Source of the DNA: Planctomycetota bacterium
Lineage (GTDB): Bacteria; Planctomycetota; SZUA-567; H5-PLA8
NCBI GenBank assembly: GCA_015075375.1
Contig: JABTUM010000001.1
Span: 2,289,201 to 2,353,200, forward strand
Direction of reading: 5' to 3'
Length of the DNA: 64,000 nucleotides
Shown: piece after piece, positions 52,160 to 62,487 of the stretch
Position numbering within the stretch: the stretch's first letter is position 1
Layout of the letters: the number at the start of each line of letters is the position of its first letter
Program-made: the position numbers and the translations under genes
Notes under the pieces: model-generated
The model's input: the letters and a program-made list of their open reading frames with translations, nothing else
The model's database searches: none
What the model was told of the DNA's origin: nothing

Positions 52160-54160
52160 TTATTCCTTCAGCTCTTCGCCACCGGTCGCCGCGGGTGCGG
52201 GTGCGGGCGGAGCCACGGGGCGGACGATGCCGGCGTCCTGCTTGAGGTTCAGGAAGTAGTCTTTGACCATCTCCTGCGCATCGGCGGGTACACGGTCCAT
52301 TTCGAGGCTGCTGGCCATCTCTTGTTCGGCGGTGGTGAGCGCCTGGACGTACGCTTCGGGGACTTCGCCTTTCGCCCCCTGGCCGCGGAAGTGCGACAGT
52401 CCGGTGATCGCGCCGGCCTGGAGTTTTCCTTTCACTTTGGATTCTTCGAACCACGCATCGCCTTCGCGATACGCGCGTCGCCCGCTGCCTTGGCCGCCCT
52501 GGTTGGGGCCGCTGAAAGACGGCTGCTGCCCGCCCTGCCCTTTCTCGCCGTTCCCGTTGCCTTGATTGTTGCCGCCCTGATTCGATTCCTGGCCGCCGTT
52601 CTGCCCGGCTTGGTTTCCCTGTTGGCCATCCTGACCTTCTTGGCCGCCGCCCTTGCCGGCTCGCTTGCCGCCTTCGCGGCCCTGTTTGCCTTGGCCGCTT
52701 TTGCTAGCACTCTTGCCGCTGCTCGCCCCGGATTTCTCGCCGCCGCCTTGGCAGTTGCCGCCCTCGCACGCACCCACCAGGCTCTCCATCGCTTCGTCCA
52801 CGCCTTCTTCCAGACTCTCCATCTCTTCCATAGCCTGCTGTTCGTCGTCGGCTAGCTGCTCGTCGTTGGCGTCGCCGGCCTTTTCCATATCGCCGGCCAG
52901 TTGGTCGAGCGATTCCTGCAGCTGCTCCGCCAACTCGCTCTGCATGCCTCCGTCTTGGTTGCCGTCCTGCTGGTCCTGGTTCTTCTTTTCCTGCTGTTGC
53001 TGTTGATGCTTCTCGATCTCTTTTTGCAGCGCGTCGTAGTCGGACGCTTTCATGCTTTGCTGGGTGACTTCCTGAAGCCCTTCGCGCAGCGCTTCCTCCT
53101 CGGCCAGCGCGCCGGCGAGTTTTTCCATTTCGCGCTGCAACTGCTTCATGGCCTCGGCCTTCTGTTCCGCCGAAAGCTTCTCGTTTTCGAGGATGTCCTG
53201 CTTGAGCTTGCGCCCGAGCCGTCGCATCTGCTGCGCCGCAAGCGCCGCGTCGCCCTGCTGCAACGCCTCGCTGACTTCCTTCGTCAGCGCGCCGTCCTCC
53301 ATGCTGAGGTCCTTTTCGGCCAGCTTCTTGAGCCGGTCGCCGAAGTCCTTGCCTTCCTTGATCTCTTCCTTTTGCTCCTCGATGGCGCGCTTCAGTTCGG
53401 CCAGCGCCACGATGCCCTCTTCGGCGGACTTCTCGCCTTCTTCGATCTGCTTGGCGATATCCTTGGCCTGCTGGATCAACTGCTTGGATTTGTACTCGGC
53501 GCTGTTTTCCTTGACCTGGGTCTGGTCCTTGGCCTGCAAGTCCTCGAGCTTGCCGAGTTGCTTCTTCAGGTCTTCGACCGTCTCGCGCTTGGCGCGGTCG
53601 CGGCGTTCGGCTTCGGCGCGTTGTTCGACCAGGCCCAACAGGTCTTTCTGCGGCATGAACTTCCAGAGGCCCCCGGCGATGAGCAGGGGAAGCGGGAGCA
53701 CCGCCAGGAAGCGCGGAGCGTTCAACGGCACGGCCTGCGTGGCATCCAGCGCCGCCAGTCGTTCGGAAGCTTCGGCAAAAAAAGCCTCGCCGAAACCCGT
53801 GGCTTCGTCGGCGCGAAGCGTCAGCGCCGTGCAAAGCCGCGCGTGCAGCCCCAGGCGTTCGTCGGCCAGCGTCGCGGCCAGCGCTTCGTGGATCCGGTTT
53901 GAAAAGCAGCGCAGCAGAACGTACGGAATGCACAGCGCCGCCAGCGCCGCCCAGACGATGTAGACGCTGATCCCAATGGCGCTGAGGTAGAGGAGCTTAT
54001 CGACGAAGATCAGCGGAATGCCCAGAAACGCGACGACGGTGAGCGAAAAGACCCCGCTGCGCAGCGCCTCCTGCACCCGCAAGCGCCAGAGCACGCGGTC
54101 GATCTCGTTCAGCAAGCGCTGGCGCGCGCGGGGCAGTGCGACGGAGAGCGAGGCGCTCAT
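52160..54160 (-). CDS. Large membrane protein with coiled coil and Gly/Asn/Gln-rich region
   Basis: 666 residues; GGAG 6 nt before the ATG. Two or three membrane helices lie at about 36-85 (VFSLTVVAFLGIPLIFVDKLL, then AIGISVYIVWAALAALCIPYV) and one near 150 (FLAVLPLPLLIAGGLW). Next come about 260 residues of charged coiled coil, then a region very rich in Gly, Asn, Gln and Ser (about 470-575), and an acidic to Pro/Ala end. The plan resembles TIGR02302/DUF4175-like proteins found beside BatA/MoxR genes, though none are here. The 3' neighbour is the binding protein gene. Function unknown. Confidence 0.7.
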   Translation of the reverse strand: MSASLSVALPRARQRLLNEIDRVLWRLRVQEALRSGVFSLTVVAFLGIPLIFVDKLLYLSAIGISVYIVWAALAALCIPYVLLRCFSNRIHEALAATLADERLGLHARLCTALTLRADEATGFGEAFFAEASERLAALDATQAVPLNAPRFLAVLPLPLLIAGGLWKFMPQKDLLGLVEQRAEAERRDRAKRETVEDLKKQLGKLEDLQAKDQTQVKENSAEYKSKQLIQQAKDIAKQIEEGEKSAEEGIVALAELKRAIEEQKEEIKEGKDFGDRLKKLAEKDLSMEDGALTKEVSEALQQGDAALAAQQMRRLGRKLKQDILENEKLSAEQKAEAMKQLQREMEKLAGALAEEEALREGLQEVTQQSMKASDYDALQKEIEKHQQQQQEKKNQDQQDGNQDGGMQSELAEQLQESLDQLAGDMEKAGDANDEQLADDEQQAMEEMESLEEGVDEAMESLVGACEGGNCQGGGEKSGASSGKSASKSGQGKQGREGGKRAGKGGGQEGQDGQQGNQAGQNGGQESNQGGNNQGNGNGEKGQGGQQPSFSGPNQGGQGSGRRAYREGDAWFEESKVKGKLQAGAITGLSHFRGQGAKGEVPEAYVQALTTAEQEMASSLEMDRVPADAQEMVKDYFLNLKQDAGIVRPVAPPAPAPAATGGEELKE

Positions 54161-54340
54161 GTCCGGCTCCTGAGTTCGAAATGTCGTTCTACCGGATGGG
54201 CCGCCCCAGCGGAAGGGCGAGCCCGGCGGACTCCTTTAAGGCTACATCAGTAAAATCCGGCCCGTCTTTCCGATATATCCAACCAATTCGGACCTATAAG
54301 TGATTTACAGGGAACATCTTACGAATACTTGTCGGATCCA

Positions 54341-54370
54341 AGGAAAACGGGGCCGCACGGCGCGGCCCCG
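54341..54370 (-). terminator. Rho-independent terminator of the 54.4-58.7 kb gene
   Basis: Stem CGGGGCCGC/GCGGCCCCG with loop ACGGC; on the minus strand it is followed by TTTT. It lies 28 bp past the stop codon at 54399 and separates the giant gene from the next. Confidence 0.85.
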
Positions 54371-54398
54371 CTGGGAACTTCGGCCCACTTCGGTTCGC

Positions 54399-57300
54399 CT
54401 ACTTCTTAGACGCGGCTACTTTCTTGCGTTGCTCGACCAGCTGCTCGAGGAACTTCACTTCACGCTCCCCGTTCTCGCGCATCAGCGGGTCGTGCTTCCA
54501 GTGTTCCAGCGCGATCTTCGCCGTCAGTCGCGCATGCTCGAAGGCGCCGCTGCGATAGGCTTCGTAAACCGCGTTGAAGAACGGCGGGCGCTCCTTGATA
54601 TGCTGGCAGAAGACCTTGTACTGCGCCACGAATTCTTCCGGCGTGACAAAGCGCGCGGCCTGCCCGAAGGACTCGGCGACGGTGGCCGTCAGCCGGGCGA
54701 AGTCTTTCTGCTCGGTCACCTGCAAGACCTCCTTCACTTCGTTCCAGTCCTTGGTCAGGAAGCCGTGCGTGAGCCGTGCGGTAAGCAGGTAGTACTCGCC
54801 GGAGGCCAGCGAGCCGCGCTTCCGCGCGTGTTCGGCGCCGCGCAGCATGGCCTTGGTGAGCGCGATCGCGTCGTCCTTGCGCCATTCGGACGGATCCTTA
54901 TCCGGATCGAGCGCCTGCCCGATCTCGAAAATGTAGGACCACATCGAGACGCGAATCCACTTCCAGTCTTCTTCCGGATTGGGTTGCCTCGATCGGCCGG
55001 CCGGATCGGGATCCCCTTCGGGCCAAGGGCCGTCCTTGAGCAGTTCCTCGCGCAGCTTCTCGTGCCCCTGCTTGGCCGCGTAGTACAGGCCGATGTACGC
55101 GTAATTGCGCTGCTGGTCGCCGAAGTCGTCTTCCTTGCGGAAGACCATATAGCGGTAGAAAGCGTTGAGCAGGTTGTCGAGCTCGTCGGTGAGGCGCTTC
55201 TCGCGGTCGGTAAGCTGCTTTCCGTTGCGGATCTGCTTGTACATTTCGTCGAGGATATTGGTCAGCGCGCCGGCGTGATCGAGGCGCATGCGCTGGCTGC
55301 GCATGAAGACGTTGGCATCGGTCTGGAGCAGTTCGTAGGCTTCCCACGGCCGTCCGATGCTGTCGAGGAGCCCGGCGAGCGAGAGGCGCGACGAGATCGT
55401 GCGCATCCACTCTTCGGTCCCGAACTTGTATCGCTTCAGTTCCTCCACGCTGTTCTTGATCGTATCGAAGGACTTATCGTCCTGTTTGGCCTCGTGCAGG
55501 TTCAGGGCGATGCGGAACTCTTCGTTGAACTTGGTCAAGACCTCGTCGGCCTTGAGTTGTTCGAGCGCTTTGCGCGTCCAGCCGTTGGCTTTTTCGAATT
55601 CGTGCACCCGGCCGTAGAGCCCGGCCAGCTCCGTGCAGTTTTCGGGTACGGCATCGCCCTTGGCGATGCGTTCTTCCATCGTCTGGATGCCCAGCGCGTA
55701 GAAGTGGAAGTGCCAGTAGCTCTGCACACGCTCCATCACCTCGGCATACTCGCGGTCGGTGAACATGCGCGTGGAGAGGTAGTACGGCGTGCGCGTGGGT
55801 TCGCCGGCAAAGCGGAAAAGATAGCCCAAGCTCTTCGGATCGAAACGCATGGTCTTGTCGCGGTCGTAAGTGCGCGAGCCGAGTTCGACGACCTGGTCCA
55901 GCGTATCGGCTTCGATGTAGCGCGGCGGGCCCGTGTCGAGGAACTGCATCACGTAGCCGTTGCCGGCGGCCTTGGGTTCCACCCATCCGCACGTGGCGTG
56001 GCCCGGCACGGCCATGACGAAGCTGAGTTTGCCCTGGCGGCGGGTCAGGTTCACATACATCTCGGCCAAGTCGTCGCAGTCGCCCAGGAAGCGCCCGCCC
56101 ATCTCGCGGTTAAGCGACTGGTACACGTCCTGGTGAATGTCGCCGCAGTGCGCGCTGCAACCCAGCAGGCCGGTGGCTTCTTCAAGCGGGCTGTCGAGGA
56201 CGTACTGGTGGAAGTACAGGAAGTACAGATGGAGGTGGCCGGTGGTGTAGAGGACCTTGGCCAACTGGTCGAGGTACGCTTCCTGGGCCTTTTTGCGTTC
56301 GTCGGCCTGCACGATCTTCGAGAAGCTGGGCAGATCGACGCGCCCCTTCTCGGTGCCGATGGCGCGCGAGCGGCCTACGGCATCGACGAAGACCACGTGC
56401 GGCGGGAAGGCCCAATCGGGCTGGCCCATCCAATCGGGGGCGTTGGGGTACGTGGTCATCGCCGCCGCCTGCGCCCAGCGCGGCTTATCGTAGGCCAGCG
56501 TGCCGGCCTTGACGTCGAAGGTCGCAACCACGCCCAGCGCCGGATGCGTCATGCTCACCTTAACCGGATCGACCCCGGCGGGCACGGTCTCGTGAATCCC
56601 TTCGTACTCCGAGACTACGAAGAGCAGAGGACGTTCCTCGGTGGACGGATTCTTGACCGCGAAACTGGTCCGGTCGGGATTCTTGTACTGGCGGCGGAAG
56701 ACGAGGTGATCGTCGTAGTTGAGCTTGAAGAGGAGCGATTCCCCGGTGGCGCCGACGCCCTCGAAACCCGTGCGCATCCGAACGTATTCGTCGTACGCCT
56801 TGCGGTAGGCGGCCAGTTCGTTCTTATAGCGCTGCTCGCTCCCCGCAATGTTCGATTCCACGTATCCGTCGTAGACCACCTGGCGGCAGAATTCGCTGGG
56901 AAGGTAGTCGTTCTGCTTCAGTTCCTTGTAGGTGCCGTTGAGCAGGTAGGCGACCACGCGGCGCTGTTCTTCCGAAACCTGCGCGTCGTTTTCGACGGCC
57001 TTGGTCAGCGCTTCGCCGGCTTGTTCGAGCGCGCGGGTCGCTTCGTCGTCGGCCTTGGCGTGTTCGTGGCCGGTTCCGGTGTAAACGCGGTCTTCGCAGA
57101 AGATCTGGACCTTGTCATCGGCCTTGCGCTTCGCGCTGGCCAACGGCGCTTCGGAAATCACTTCCCAGCTCGAGCCCGGCGGGACGCCCGCCTTTTGCAT
57201 GGCGTCGCCCAGCGTCTGGACCATGCGTATGGCCGCGCCGGGGCGCTTGGTGAGCAGATCCTCGGCGACGGTGAAACGCTCGCCGCCCGCCTCCAGGACC

Positions 57301-58748
57301 ATCTGTTCCTTGCCCTCGGTGCGTTCAAGACCGAGGGTCATGCTCGCGCCGTTGTATTGAAGGCTTACGCCGCCAGCCGGATTCTTGGCCCCCACGGCAA
57401 TGCCCGGATCGCGCCGCGCGAGGTTCTGAGCGGCCCGGTTGAGCTTGTCCAAGTCTTCCGGGTTCAGGCGCTTGAACTTCTTCTTCTCGTCTTCGATCTG
57501 CGCCTTGAGCTTCGTCAACTGCGCCAGGATCGGCTTATGGTCGGCGCTCGCCACATCGAGCCCCTGGGCGAATTCGTCGAGCTTCTGCAAGGCCGCGTCG
57601 AAATCGCCCTTCGCGCGCTGCGCCACGCGCTTGGCTTCTTCGTATTTCCCGCCCAGCAGGCGCAGCGCCGTGATGCGCTGCTCAAGGGCGTCGTCCTTCA
57701 GCTTGTCGTTCGCCGCGAGCTTGGTGCGGATGTCGTTGGCTTTCTGGATCGCCGCGTCGATCTCGCCACCGCGGTAGATCTGATTGGCCTCATCCATCTC
57801 CTTGCGCAGCGCGGCCAGCAGCGCTTGGCGTTCCAGTTCGGATACCTGCACCAGCGCTTCGTCGATCTTGCGCTGCAACGCCATCGATGCGCCGCTCTCG
57901 TCGGCGAGGAGCATACGCTTGCGTTCGAGCTGCTCGCGGATCTGCCCGGGCTTGACCTTCGACTGCTCCATCAGCTCGTCGATTTCGTCGAAACGCGCCT
58001 TCTGATCGGCGACCTTCTTGAGCGCTTCGCGCCAAGCCGTCAGCTTGGCGGCTTCGGCATCCTGGGTGAGCGAGTTGACGAGTTGTTCGGCGGCCTTCGC
58101 CTTCTTCGCCGCTTCCTCGATTTCCCCCTCGTCCATCTTCGCGGCGGCCTGCTGCACCAAGCCGTCGGTCTGCTTAATCTGAGCGGCCACCTCCATCTGC
58201 TTGGAAATCGTCAGGAAGACGAAGAAGCCGATCGCCAGCACAATGCCCGCGGCGCCGACGAGGATGGGAACCTTGGAACTGGCCTTGGGCGCGCGGCGCT
58301 CTTGAAAGCGGCCTTCGCCGGTGGCGCGCTGGCGCGGCGAACTGGCCGCGGGCCGGCGCGTTCCGCTGATGCCCGGCCGGCGAACTTCTCCGGCCGGCAG
58401 AGCCGAGGGTGCCTGGACCTCTTCCTGCCCGGCCTCCGCCTCATGCGCCTGCGGCGAAGCCGGCGGGGCAGCCTGAGTGCGCATGGCGCTGGCGGACGGA
58501 TGAACCACCTGCGCCCCCGATCCGCTCGCCCCGGGCGCCGGCGCTACCTTGGGTTGTGAAAATCCGGACTGGGAAGCCGCGCGAACCGCCGGAGCCTGCT
58601 GCTCGCCGCCGGCCGCGGGTACCATCAAGACCGTCTGGCAATCGGGGCAACGAACCTTGCGGCCTACATTGGCCGCCGAAGCGGCCAACGCCTTGCCGCA
58701 TTCGGAGCACTTAAAGTGGACTTTCGGGGTTTCGGATCCTGGCTCCAT
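54399..58748 (-). CDS. Giant zinc-ribbon/coiled-coil protein with transglutaminase-like domain
   Basis: 1449 residues from MEPGSETPKV; AGGGAGGT lies about 4 nt upstream. N-terminal MJ0042-like ribbon C14-SEC17 and C34-PDC37, a Pro/Ala-rich linker, one membrane helix (160-182, KVPILVGAAGIVLAIGFFVFLT), then long coiled-coil repeats to about 450. A globular half holds a transglutaminase-like triad: C891 in GDCDDLAEMYVNL, H917 in PGHATCGW and D938 in FLDTGPP. The last 400 residues are helical, TPR-like. The ribbon faces the cytoplasm and the rest the periplasm. A protein-crosslinking or cysteine-protease role is inferred from the triad. Own terminator; divergent from the DUF4388 gene. Confidence 0.75.
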   Translation of the reverse strand: MEPGSETPKVHFKCSECGKALAASAANVGRKVRCPDCQTVLMVPAAGGEQQAPAVRAASQSGFSQPKVAPAPGASGSGAQVVHPSASAMRTQAAPPASPQAHEAEAGQEEVQAPSALPAGEVRRPGISGTRRPAASSPRQRATGEGRFQERRAPKASSKVPILVGAAGIVLAIGFFVFLTISKQMEVAAQIKQTDGLVQQAAAKMDEGEIEEAAKKAKAAEQLVNSLTQDAEAAKLTAWREALKKVADQKARFDEIDELMEQSKVKPGQIREQLERKRMLLADESGASMALQRKIDEALVQVSELERQALLAALRKEMDEANQIYRGGEIDAAIQKANDIRTKLAANDKLKDDALEQRITALRLLGGKYEEAKRVAQRAKGDFDAALQKLDEFAQGLDVASADHKPILAQLTKLKAQIEDEKKKFKRLNPEDLDKLNRAAQNLARRDPGIAVGAKNPAGGVSLQYNGASMTLGLERTEGKEQMVLEAGGERFTVAEDLLTKRPGAAIRMVQTLGDAMQKAGVPPGSSWEVISEAPLASAKRKADDKVQIFCEDRVYTGTGHEHAKADDEATRALEQAGEALTKAVENDAQVSEEQRRVVAYLLNGTYKELKQNDYLPSEFCRQVVYDGYVESNIAGSEQRYKNELAAYRKAYDEYVRMRTGFEGVGATGESLLFKLNYDDHLVFRRQYKNPDRTSFAVKNPSTEERPLLFVVSEYEGIHETVPAGVDPVKVSMTHPALGVVATFDVKAGTLAYDKPRWAQAAAMTTYPNAPDWMGQPDWAFPPHVVFVDAVGRSRAIGTEKGRVDLPSFSKIVQADERKKAQEAYLDQLAKVLYTTGHLHLYFLYFHQYVLDSPLEEATGLLGCSAHCGDIHQDVYQSLNREMGGRFLGDCDDLAEMYVNLTRRQGKLSFVMAVPGHATCGWVEPKAAGNGYVMQFLDTGPPRYIEADTLDQVVELGSRTYDRDKTMRFDPKSLGYLFRFAGEPTRTPYYLSTRMFTDREYAEVMERVQSYWHFHFYALGIQTMEERIAKGDAVPENCTELAGLYGRVHEFEKANGWTRKALEQLKADEVLTKFNEEFRIALNLHEAKQDDKSFDTIKNSVEELKRYKFGTEEWMRTISSRLSLAGLLDSIGRPWEAYELLQTDANVFMRSQRMRLDHAGALTNILDEMYKQIRNGKQLTDREKRLTDELDNLLNAFYRYMVFRKEDDFGDQQRNYAYIGLYYAAKQGHEKLREELLKDGPWPEGDPDPAGRSRQPNPEEDWKWIRVSMWSYIFEIGQALDPDKDPSEWRKDDAIALTKAMLRGAEHARKRGSLASGEYYLLTARLTHGFLTKDWNEVKEVLQVTEQKDFARLTATVAESFGQAARFVTPEEFVAQYKVFCQHIKERPPFFNAVYEAYRSGAFEHARLTAKIALEHWKHDPLMRENGEREVKFLEQLVEQRKKVAASKK

Positions 58749-58808
58749 GCAACCTCCCTGGTACCGGAAGAACGGACCACCAATGATCAGACGCGCCAAA
58801 ACGCGCAG

Positions 58809-59056: not shown

Positions 59057-59235
59057 AGCCTTCAGGCTTTAGCTGGATGAACCGGTAAGTGCATAGGGGT
59101 CGGTTCGGCGCTGGCCGCAGCGGAACCGGGCCCAATCGTACTCCGTCGCCCCTCCCGGCTTCGGCGGGCGCAACCTCGGATTTTGCGGGCTGAGTCGTTT
59201 GGCGTGGCCGCAGCCGTGTGGAGAAGCAGGGCTAC

Positions 59236-62200
59236 ATGGGTCTAAAAGGCAACCTGGCCACGGTCAGCCTCGCCGACGTATTTCAGGCGCTGTCGCACGG
59301 CCATTCCACGGGTCTGCTGCGGATCCAGACGCCGGAAGGCACGCGTTTTGTCGAAATCCAGGACGGCGCGGTCACCATCGTCAGCGGCGCGGGGAACCGA
59401 ATTCTGATCGGCGACTTGCTGATCGCCCGCGGCCTGCTGAACCAGGACCAACTCCAGGAAGCGCTCAAACGGCAAAAAGAGTCCGGCAACCTGCTCGGGC
59501 AAGTGATGGTCGAACTGGGTCTGGTCACGATGGACGACCTGGAGGCCGCGCTGCGCTTCCAGGTCGAAGAAGAGATCTGCGACCTGTTCCTGCTCAAAGA
59601 AGCCGAATTCGACTTCCTGGCCAACGCCAGCCTGGACGCCAAGATGGCTCTGGGCGGCGGGTTTCTACGCCTGAAGATCGACCCTAACTCGCTGCTGCTG
59701 GAAGCCGCCCGGCGCGTGGACGAATGGAAGGAACTGGAGAAGCGCGTCCGCAACCAGGCCAGCCTTTGGCGGCTGACCGATTCGGGCCGCGAGATGCTGA
59801 CCAACAGCCACGGCTTGTCGCCGGAAGGGCTGGTGCTCCTGCAATTGACCGACGAACTGCGCACGGTCGAGTCGATGGTGCAGAAGGCCTGCCTAGGCCG
59901 GATGAACACCAACCTGCTGCTGGTGGAACTGTGGGACGCCGAACTGATCCAGCCCTTGCCGCCGGCCGAATACCTCAACGCGGCCAAAGCGCACCACGAT
60001 GCCGGCCGTCTGGACGAGGCCGAGCGGATCGCGCGCTGCGCGCTGGAACTGGAAGGCGATGCCGGGCGCAAAGAGGCTCTGCAAAAGCTGCTGAAAGACC
60101 TGGAACGCAAGCGCAACCTGGTATCGGGTGCGACGGCGGCCGCCGATTCGGTCCGCGTACGTTCCGAGGTCATCCGCCGGCCCAACCCCGCTCTGATCAT
60201 CCAGAAAAAAGGGTCCGGGAAGACGCTGGCCATCGCCTCGGTCTTTCTGGTGATCCTGGCCGGGGGCGGCGGCTGGACGTACTACAAGCATTTCCGGCAG
60301 GCCGAAATTCCAGATGACGTGCGCCGCCAGTTCGACGCGTGGATGCTGCGCGTGGACGAAGCCATCGCCAAACGCGCGTACGACGAAGCCTTCGATCTGC
60401 TGCAGGTCGTTCCGCGCGACGAGGCCATACGCAAGAAGTCGGCCGAGAAATATTCCGAAGTGCTCAAAATCATAGGCGACGAATTGACGCAGTGCCTCAA
60501 CCAGACCAAGTCGGCGCTGGACGCGGGCGACCCCAAGGCTCTGGACGACGCGGCCAAGGAATTGAAACGCTTTACGAATCTGCTGCCCAAACTGGAAGGA
60601 CCGGTACGCGACGAGTTCGCGGTCGTACAGAAGCGGTTCGACGAGTGGCGCCAAGCGCAGGCGGCGAAGGCCTTCCGCGGTCGCCTGGCCGAAGCCGAGA
60701 AACTGGAAGGCGACGCGCGAGCCGAAGCCATGCGCGCCATGCTGGCCGAAGGACCGCCCGAAGAGATTGCCTGCAAATTGCGCGCGCAGGTCTCCGCGCT
60801 CGACCAGAACCGCGCCGCGGCCCAGGCGGTGCTGGAACTGGGCAAGCGCGACGAGACGCTCGGCGACTTGACCTCGGCGCGGCTGCGCTACCAGTCGGTG
60901 ATCAGCGGCCACCCCGGCTCGGCGCAGGCTCAGGAGGCGCAGCAGCGCCAGACGGCGCTCGACGAACACCTCAAGACCGTCGGCCAGACCCTCGAGAAGG
61001 TGAACCGGTTGATGGTTCAGCGCGACTTCAAGACCGCGCAGCAGGAATTGGAAGCGTTCTTCAAGCTCGACCCCGACATCTACCTGGCCAAGCGTGCCCG
61101 GGAACTGCTTTCCACGGTAAACGCCAGCATCGCTCCGGAAGCCGAAGTCTCCGCCGAGAATTTGTGGAAGGAAATCCAGCGCCTCGAGCTACGCGGGCAG
61201 CTCGACGAAGCCATGAAAAAGAAGAGCGAACTCGTCGATACGCATCCTCTTTCGCAGGCCGCCTCCAAGGCCACCTTGCGTCTGAAAATCACCAGCCAGC
61301 CAGCTGGCGCGAAAATCACGCTCAATGGGGTGCTGACCGCACAGCCGACGCCAACCGAGCTGATCGTGCCGATGCAAGGGCTCGTCCGCGTAGACCTGCA
61401 GAAGGAAGGCTTCGAAGCCTACACCTATGCGGCGAAGAACCTGCGCGAATCGTCAATCGACGTGGTTTTGAACCGCCTGCCCGCACAGGCGCCTCGACTG
61501 CTGCCGGGAGCCGTAACGGGGGGCCTGTCGCGCCGTGAGCACTGGCTGGTCTGGCTGCAAGGACCCGACGTCTGGCTGCTCAACGGTAAACTCAAGCCCG
61601 AAGAGCCGCTGCTAAAAGTGACGCCGGAAGCGAGTACCGAGGCGCTGCGCCATATCCGCTTCGTGCAGGGCAGCGACCTGGAAGCGCTGGTGTGCGGCTC
61701 GGCCGCGTCGTCCCGGATCTACCGGATCGATCCGACCACCCTCCGTTCGCGGGTGCTGGAGCTCAAATCGCCTGCGCTTGCGGCCCCCGTCAGCATGGCC
61801 CATCGGCTGATGCCCAATCGACCATTCCTGGGCGTGACCACCGTAGCGGGCTTTGAATGCTTTAATTTAGTCGACGGAGGAGCGCGCTTCGCCGCGAAGA
61901 CGCTGCCGGGCGGAGCCCCGCCGGCAGGCTGCGGGCTGGACCACGACGACCTGAATTTCTATTTTGCCCGCGGCGACGGGAAGCTCTACGCCATCGCCCA
62001 CGAGTCCGGTGAGGAGCGCCAGGCCTCCTTGCCTCCCGAACCGTGCGGGGGACCGGCTGTGCATGCCGATTCCAAGTCCGTCGTCGTCTTGGCCCGCGAG
62101 GGCACGCTGCAGGGCTGGAGCACCGCGACGCTGCAACAGACCTTCACGCACAAACTGGGCGCTGCGCCGCGCTTCGGTCCGCTGAGTTTGAAAAACGGAT

Positions 62201-62487
62201 TTCTGGCGGTCACCGGCGCCCAGACGCTGGAACTGGCCGCGCCCGACCGAGCGCAGACGCTTTGGACAACCAACTTGGATGCCGAACCCGTGCTGCCGCC
62301 CGTGGCCGTGGGTACGGATTACATCGCAATCGCCACCGCCAGCCACCTCGTGCTGAAGGAAGCGGCCACCGGCCATACGCTTTGGATGGCACGCCTGCCG
62401 CAAAAGCCGACCGCGCTTCTGGGCTCCGGCGATCAGGCGGTGCTGGTCACCGAAGACGGCTATCTGCGCGTCTACGACGGCCAATAA
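59236..62487 (+). CDS. DUF4388/GspE_N–PEGA–beta-propeller membrane protein
   Basis: 1083 residues from MGLKGNLATVSLADVFQALSH, a DUF4388 (PATAN-like) domain. Next is a GspE N-terminal-like unit (ILIGDLLIARGLLNQDQLQEAL, LGQVMVELGLVTMDDLEAALRF, given in part) to about 145, a helical region, and a membrane helix (331-352, LAIASVFLVILAGGGGWTYY). After it come TPR/coiled-coil helices, a PEGA domain (LKITSQPAGAKITLNGVLTA, 682-733) and a PQQ-like propeller ending TEDGYLRVYDGQ. Alternative start GTG at 59218. Stop codon sits inside the terminator hairpin of topA. Looks like a cytoplasmic-input, periplasmic-output scaffold; function unknown. Confidence 0.82.
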   Translation: MGLKGNLATVSLADVFQALSHGHSTGLLRIQTPEGTRFVEIQDGAVTIVSGAGNRILIGDLLIARGLLNQDQLQEALKRQKESGNLLGQVMVELGLVTMDDLEAALRFQVEEEICDLFLLKEAEFDFLANASLDAKMALGGGFLRLKIDPNSLLLEAARRVDEWKELEKRVRNQASLWRLTDSGREMLTNSHGLSPEGLVLLQLTDELRTVESMVQKACLGRMNTNLLLVELWDAELIQPLPPAEYLNAAKAHHDAGRLDEAERIARCALELEGDAGRKEALQKLLKDLERKRNLVSGATAAADSVRVRSEVIRRPNPALIIQKKGSGKTLAIASVFLVILAGGGGWTYYKHFRQAEIPDDVRRQFDAWMLRVDEAIAKRAYDEAFDLLQVVPRDEAIRKKSAEKYSEVLKIIGDELTQCLNQTKSALDAGDPKALDDAAKELKRFTNLLPKLEGPVRDEFAVVQKRFDEWRQAQAAKAFRGRLAEAEKLEGDARAEAMRAMLAEGPPEEIACKLRAQVSALDQNRAAAQAVLELGKRDETLGDLTSARLRYQSVISGHPGSAQAQEAQQRQTALDEHLKTVGQTLEKVNRLMVQRDFKTAQQELEAFFKLDPDIYLAKRARELLSTVNASIAPEAEVSAENLWKEIQRLELRGQLDEAMKKKSELVDTHPLSQAASKATLRLKITSQPAGAKITLNGVLTAQPTPTELIVPMQGLVRVDLQKEGFEAYTYAAKNLRESSIDVVLNRLPAQAPRLLPGAVTGGLSRREHWLVWLQGPDVWLLNGKLKPEEPLLKVTPEASTEALRHIRFVQGSDLEALVCGSAASSRIYRIDPTTLRSRVLELKSPALAAPVSMAHRLMPNRPFLGVTTVAGFECFNLVDGGARFAAKTLPGGAPPAGCGLDHDDLNFYFARGDGKLYAIAHESGEERQASLPPEPCGGPAVHADSKSVVVLAREGTLQGWSTATLQQTFTHKLGAAPRFGPLSLKNGFLAVTGAQTLELAAPDRAQTLWTTNLDAEPVLPPVAVGTDYIAIATASHLVLKEAATGHTLWMARLPQKPTALLGSGDQAVLVTEDGYLRVYDGQ

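Follow-up and report, generated by a model that had tools for sequence, protein, structure and literature searches.

The window, a stretch of 64,000 nucleotides from a Planctomycetota bacterium (assembly GCA_015075375.1, contig JABTUM010000001.1, positions 2,289,201 to 2,353,200), encodes a 1449-residue protein with a predicted transglutaminase-like Cys-His site. Several lines of evidence give good support to such a site in a protein that is exported: the cysteine and histidine are conserved, their spacing is that of Transglut_core2 (PF13369), the profiles align in register, and both residues are lost together with a further motif in degenerate paralogues. We put the probability at roughly 0.55 that the protein represents a so far uncatalogued family of Cys-His enzymes that are exported and fall in the transglutaminase/papain-like superfamily, nearest to Transglut_core2, and that it is probably an acid-flanked, calcium-gated peptidase. 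An earlier sequence-only reading had placed the protein at 54399-58748 and gave no strand; the open frame is found there on the minus strand, preceded by a ribosome-binding-site-like GGGAGG. The positions it gave for C891 in GDCDDLAE (889-896), H917 in PGHATC (915-920) and D938 in FLDTG (936-940) are all exact.

Homologues are spread across Planctomycetota, a distribution which that reading had proposed to check. Of 392 genomes sampled, 53 match a query made of the catalytic half (E <= 0.01); the weakest match, G036 (E 0.009, stops in frame), is probably due to chance. The domain is present in 22 of 41 genomes of relatives, the window's genome included, and in 30 of 199 genomes drawn across the phylum. 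The four named homologue records are Planctomycetota metagenome-assembled genomes, and no homologues were found in viral, plasmid or phage collections. In a deeper set 83 frames matched, 80 of which span the domain; these were collapsed to 44 sequences via a shared 40-residue core. One of the 44 is a fragment without the site, so the counts rest on the other 43. They are exclusive of four paralogues, which were read separately, and of further matches of the 392-genome search, which stand outside the alignment.

Active-site conservation is strict at most positions. In a first alignment GDCDD, H872-Q873, D852-S-P, P915 and H917-A918 are identical in 26/26 sequences. In the deeper set C891, H917, D852, H872, Q873, D890, D892 and D893 are kept throughout (43/43), and the identity of the cysteine and histidine holds down to about 28% domain identity. 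Position 938 varies: it is Q in 33 members, D in seven and H in three, and the superfamily is tolerant of variation at its third residue. Thus the cysteine and histidine of the proposed Cys/His/Asp triad stand, also with regard to loss in close homologues, but the aspartate is not a fixed part of it. Two paralogues (L111 and L113) keep the cysteine and histidine and carry D892 to A, H872 to Q and D852 to P replacements; H872 and D852 can go while the pair stays. Two tandem paralogues of one genome (L100:3515-6718 and L100:7131-10316, minus strand) have lost the cysteine, the histidine and H872. Because the three are lost together, the motifs appear to serve one site, and the two copies are candidate pseudoenzymes. 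The same genome (G045) also has an intact copy (L080/L099).

The spacing of the site is that of Transglut_core2, which we take to be the SirB1-like family. The cysteine and histidine are 26 residues apart in 43/43 members; among 30 Transglut_core2 proteins the distance from nucleophile site to histidine is 26 in 28, and 31 and 34 in the other two. Both groups also have a gapless G-x-C...R-x-G...PxH block with helices before it. Alignment by hhalign with the 13 Cys-bearing Transglut_core2 sequences gives a score of 31.6 (reciprocal 31.9) over 104-105 columns and lines up the cysteines and the PxH motifs of the two profiles. Among decoys, the top score is 20.4 for 32 unrelated real-family windows and 20.7 for 50 shuffles; the hhalign E-values are those of single comparisons, not of database searches. 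There are differences as well. The histidine is followed by the third residue after 14-19 positions in Transglut_core2 and after 19-21 in the family, and this residue is E in the Cys-bearing Transglut_core2 proteins but D, Q or H in the family. The acidic flanks of the cysteine, the mostly-strand domain ahead of the catalytic domain, export and the lack of a Pfam match also set the family apart. The third acid of Transglut_core2 falls on L937, one column before 938; for this reason either the side chain of 938 or the backbone of 937 may hold the histidine. The nucleophile site of Transglut_core2 is itself variable, with Cys in 13 and Pro in 17 of the 30 proteins (L149-L178). Pro is paired with Asp at the third position in 17/17 cases and Cys with Glu in 13/13; by sequence these look like two separate functional groups.

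Membership of Transglut_core (PF01841) is rejected. The sequence-only reading described the spacing as that of this domain, which proved incorrect: in 35/35 Transglut_core domains of the phylum the cysteine and histidine are 34-45 residues apart, and the histidine and aspartate mostly 14-17. The profile search that it proposed finds no Transglut_core match in the 1449-residue protein, in its domain, or in sets of 25 and 37 members. The likeness that exists is a G-x-C at a helix start and profile register at the cysteine helix. Elsewhere, the window's genome has 14 matches to Transglut_core and three to Transglut_core2; the window protein is among neither.

The flanks of the cysteine point to another group of enzymes. 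The sequence D-C-D-D is found in all 43 members, whereas D-C-[DE]-[DE] is found in 0/35 Transglut_core domains and 0/13 Cys-bearing Transglut_core2 proteins. Acids beside the cysteine of an exported Cys-His enzyme are a feature of the BTLCP/LapG/DvhG group (PF06035, Peptidase_C93). Excerpts of the source papers place the nucleophile of LapG at C137, with D139 two residues after it (PMC6642083), name D139 as a calcium ligand (PMC4866520), and report that in the LapG homologue DvhG D316A/E318A and C317A each abolish calcium-dependent cleavage (PMC13090378). D893 of the family corresponds to D139 of LapG, and D890 and D892 to D316 and E318 of DvhG. Because of this parallel a calcium-gated exported peptidase is proposed. 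The family differs from LapG and DvhG in that it has no fixed C-H-D triad and no PF06035 match, either in the window protein or in any of 294 phylum genomes searched (0/294, the window's genome included). No Lap-type adhesin or receptor operon was noticed around the family's loci. By analogy, these proteins could be calcium-gated cysteine proteases doing in Planctomycetota what LapG does elsewhere, combining Transglut_core2 spacing with a LapG-type acid-flanked cysteine and a D/Q/H third residue; the catalytically dead paralogues of some genomes might then have a regulatory role. This broader idea is speculative and rather doubtful.

The catalytic part of the protein is constant and the N-terminus variable, which is consistent with export. 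In all complete frames with the DCDD motif, 552-611 residues lie between the motif and the end. Four comparisons give 23-44% identity ahead of the catalytic domain versus 56-70% in the catalytic part. In the window's class the N-terminus has a ribbon-like motif, a linker, one transmembrane segment and a helical region. Other families, which have shorter forms, start instead with a signal-peptide-like sequence or an N-terminal transmembrane segment. That these two kinds of N-terminus both lead out of the cytoplasm is the best evidence for export. Basic residues precede the hydrophobic segment, so by the positive-inside rule the N-terminus would be inside and the remainder outside. The proposed cytoplasmic zinc ribbon can be kept as a ribbon motif (C14/C17/C34/C37) ahead of one hydrophobic segment; it scores below curated cut-offs, and one Cys pair is incomplete in some members (e.g. 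L055, L056, L064). The proposed long coiled coil was not found: 0/251 28-residue windows in 182-460 pass a heptad test, a rough heuristic that asks for L/I/V/M at >=6 of 8 a/d positions, and four tetratricopeptide repeat (TPR)-like turns interrupt the region. Nor is there support for a span from the membrane far into the periplasm. The C-terminal region gives weak TPR-like matches, below cut-offs, in three of ten relatives. The N-terminal stretch of ribbon and linker also occurs in two other proteins of the window's genome, L002 and L003 (E 4.4e-5 and 0.002).

Fold prediction gave two AlphaFold models, of 391 and 223 residues, each built from five sequences. In both, a helix begins at the cysteine, strands follow, and the histidine is on the second strand. 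This order of elements fits the transglutaminase/papain superfamily, whose fold is here a supported inference. In a structural search with VIA-align the first model has vasohibin-2 at the top (Z 4.4, 115 aligned, root-mean-square deviation 4.5), with more vasohibin rows below. Vasohibins and CPR-C4 resemble the family in having a non-canonical third position; CPR-C4 has a Cys-His-Leu carbonyl site, as in vasohibins, according to an excerpt of its description (PMC9108980), and this is the precedent for a role of the L937 backbone in the family. E171 is the residue of vasohibin VASH1 predicted to bind calcium; it is aligned to LapG D139, two residues after the cysteine, which is the place of D893 in the family. 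The Cys-His spacing differs, being 35 in VASH2 (C158, H193) and 32 in CPR-C4 (C61, H93) versus 26.

It should be noted that a number of results weigh against placing the family in this superfamily next to Transglut_core2. The mean predicted local distance difference test values of the models are weak (56.2 for the longer and 54.7 for the shorter), and the models settle nothing. Foldseek finds nothing at E <= 0.001 for either; the best hits (E 0.10 and 0.14) are unrelated proteins. Unrelated rows at 3.8 tie with vasohibin for the first model, and for the second no vasohibin is listed, the best rows being small alpha-beta domains of unrelated proteins. Sequence searches of the PDB gave no match with the first query (A1), and with the catalytic half only chance matches to EF-hands, outside the active site (best E 0.11). 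No Pfam match to the transglutaminase-like families (Transglut_core and Transglut_core2) is found in 37 members. The hhalign probability with Transglut_core2 is 31-39% when the family's profiles are the query and 9-33% in the reciprocals, and with Transglut_core2 as query one decoy (BipA) reaches 28.2. Against Transglut_core the score is 21.1, like the 20.4-21.7 of the top decoy, with a probability of 3% (8-10% reciprocal). A positive control, Transglut_core against Transglut_core2, gives 50.7 and 93%, which weakens the lower match between the family and Transglut_core2. The third residue, finally, is not conserved and in the hhalign alignment is one column off the Transglut_core2 acid.

In the favoured mechanism the N-terminus would be cytoplasmic and one helix would cross the membrane, with the catalytic domain and the C-terminal helical repeats outside. 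H917 would activate C891 at the helix start, and the histidine would be oriented either by the side chain at 938, whether D, Q or H, or by the main-chain carbonyl of L937. D890, D892 and D893 would probably form a binding site for a metal ion (calcium being the likeliest), which would gate activity as in LapG and DvhG. Most likely an envelope protein would be cut at a peptide or isopeptide bond, and the C-terminal repeats may recruit this substrate.

Other readings of the site were weighed. A true transglutaminase would pass an acyl-thioester on C891 to lysine and crosslink envelope proteins. It would belong to the same superfamily, whose members catalyse several acyl-transfer reactions according to an excerpt of one source (PMC4866520), and 13 of the 14 other Transglut_core matches in the window's genome are above cut-off. 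However, spacing and profile are unlike Transglut_core, an acceptor-site feature was not identified, and the neighbourhood holds no hint of a crosslinked polymer, which makes this reading unlikely. The sequence-only reading had left crosslinking and cutting side by side; a hydrolase or peptidase is more likely, and nothing favours crosslinking. It is equally improbable that the Cys-His fold serves for binding or scaffolding with catalysis lost, its conservation coming from structure or metal binding. The Pro at the nucleophile site of 17/30 Transglut_core2 proteins would agree with this, as would the variable third residue and the two paralogues without cysteine and histidine. Against it, the pair is invariant in the 43 members and in two further paralogues while flanking regions diverge, and in the two fully degenerate copies it is gone together with H872.

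Slightly less probable again is a different thiol-hydrolase fold, such as an NlpC/P60-like amidase or peptidoglycan enzyme, in which the Transglut_core2 spacing would be accidental. The weakness of the fold models leaves room for it. The third active-site residue of NlpC/P60 is polar, and D, Q or H at 938 resembles it. Profile register and spacing favour Transglut_core2 instead; the NlpC/P60 profile comparison drew sequence from only 1/40 genomes, which is too few. Neither NlpC/P60 nor papain is among the displayed rows of the structural search, an absence that carries no weight against them.

Little is known of the enzymes that process the unusual cell envelope of Planctomycetota. The family is unnamed by family databases, and its members are probably uncharacterised enzymes acting on extracytoplasmic proteins by cleavage or modification. 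The whole protein scores below cut-off with every Pfam and NCBIfam model, and Pfam gives no match to the catalytic domain alone. Among the papers listed by literature searches on transglutaminase-like proteins, LapG or envelope cysteine proteases of Planctomycetota, no title or abstract opening describes it. What it provides is a conserved, well-delimited family whose active site is predicted to the residue (C891, H917 and the acidic flanks), in a phylum where none of 294 genomes searched gave PF06035. It would also be a relative of Transglut_core2 that is exported; a 2023 survey of papain-like proteinases gives the function of Transglut_core2 as unknown (PMC10318531), and in the main text of that survey no word begins 'Planctomyc'.

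Features of the gene and its product (window coordinates).
Feature	Coordinates	Strand	Remark
Whole gene, 1449 aa	54399-58748	minus	ATG at 58748, stop 54399-54401
GGGAGG, ribosome-binding-site-like, 4 bases 5' of ATG	58753-58758	minus	direct sequence reading
C4 zinc-ribbon-like motif C-x2-C...C-x2-C, residues 14-37 (C14, C17, C34, C37)	58638-58709	minus	below curated cut-offs
Single hydrophobic segment, residues 161-181, basic residues before	58206-58268	minus	
Helical region, residues 182-460, four TPR-like turns	57369-58205	minus	not a continuous coiled coil
Mostly-strand domain ahead of catalytic domain, residues ~684-805	56334-56699	minus	AlphaFold model 1, moderate confidence in parts
Predicted catalytic domain, residues 805-1000, best conserved segment	55749-56336	minus	56-70% identity to four relatives
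D852-S-P motif	56187-56195	minus	D in 43/43
H872-Q873 motif	56130-56135	minus	43/43; H replaced in deviant paralogues
G889-D-C891-D-D893, predicted nucleophile with acidic flanks	56070-56084	minus	C, D890, D892, D893 in 43/43
P915-x-H917, predicted catalytic histidine	55998-56006	minus	43/43
L937-[D/Q/H]938-T-G940, putative third-position site (938 side chain or 937 backbone)	55929-55940	minus	
C-terminal helical region, residues 1001-1449	54402-55748	minus	near-constant length in both architectures

A plus-strand frame at 54300-58559 was rejected as an antisense shadow; homologues align to the minus-strand protein. An operon-based function was rejected too, as only close relatives share the neighbouring genes. 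Downstream and co-directional is a 666-residue membrane protein (52160-54160, minus strand) whose tail is rich in Q and G; it has no Pfam match and was not seen beside homologues at other loci. The divergent neighbour (59218-62487, plus strand) encodes 1089 residues with DUF4388, PEGA and a BamB-like propeller, and has a match to an MshE-related cyclic di-GMP-binding domain (E 8e-16). A DUF4388 gene also adjoins the enzyme gene in L049 and L068; within the window's own family the divergent DUF4388 gene is found in three loci, and SecA in three. In three genomes of one genus (L106, L107 and L118) the enzyme gene is preceded on its own strand, at a distance of about 4-55 bases, by another frame. 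These upstream frames cluster together, and the one in L107 is a MoxR-type ATPase.

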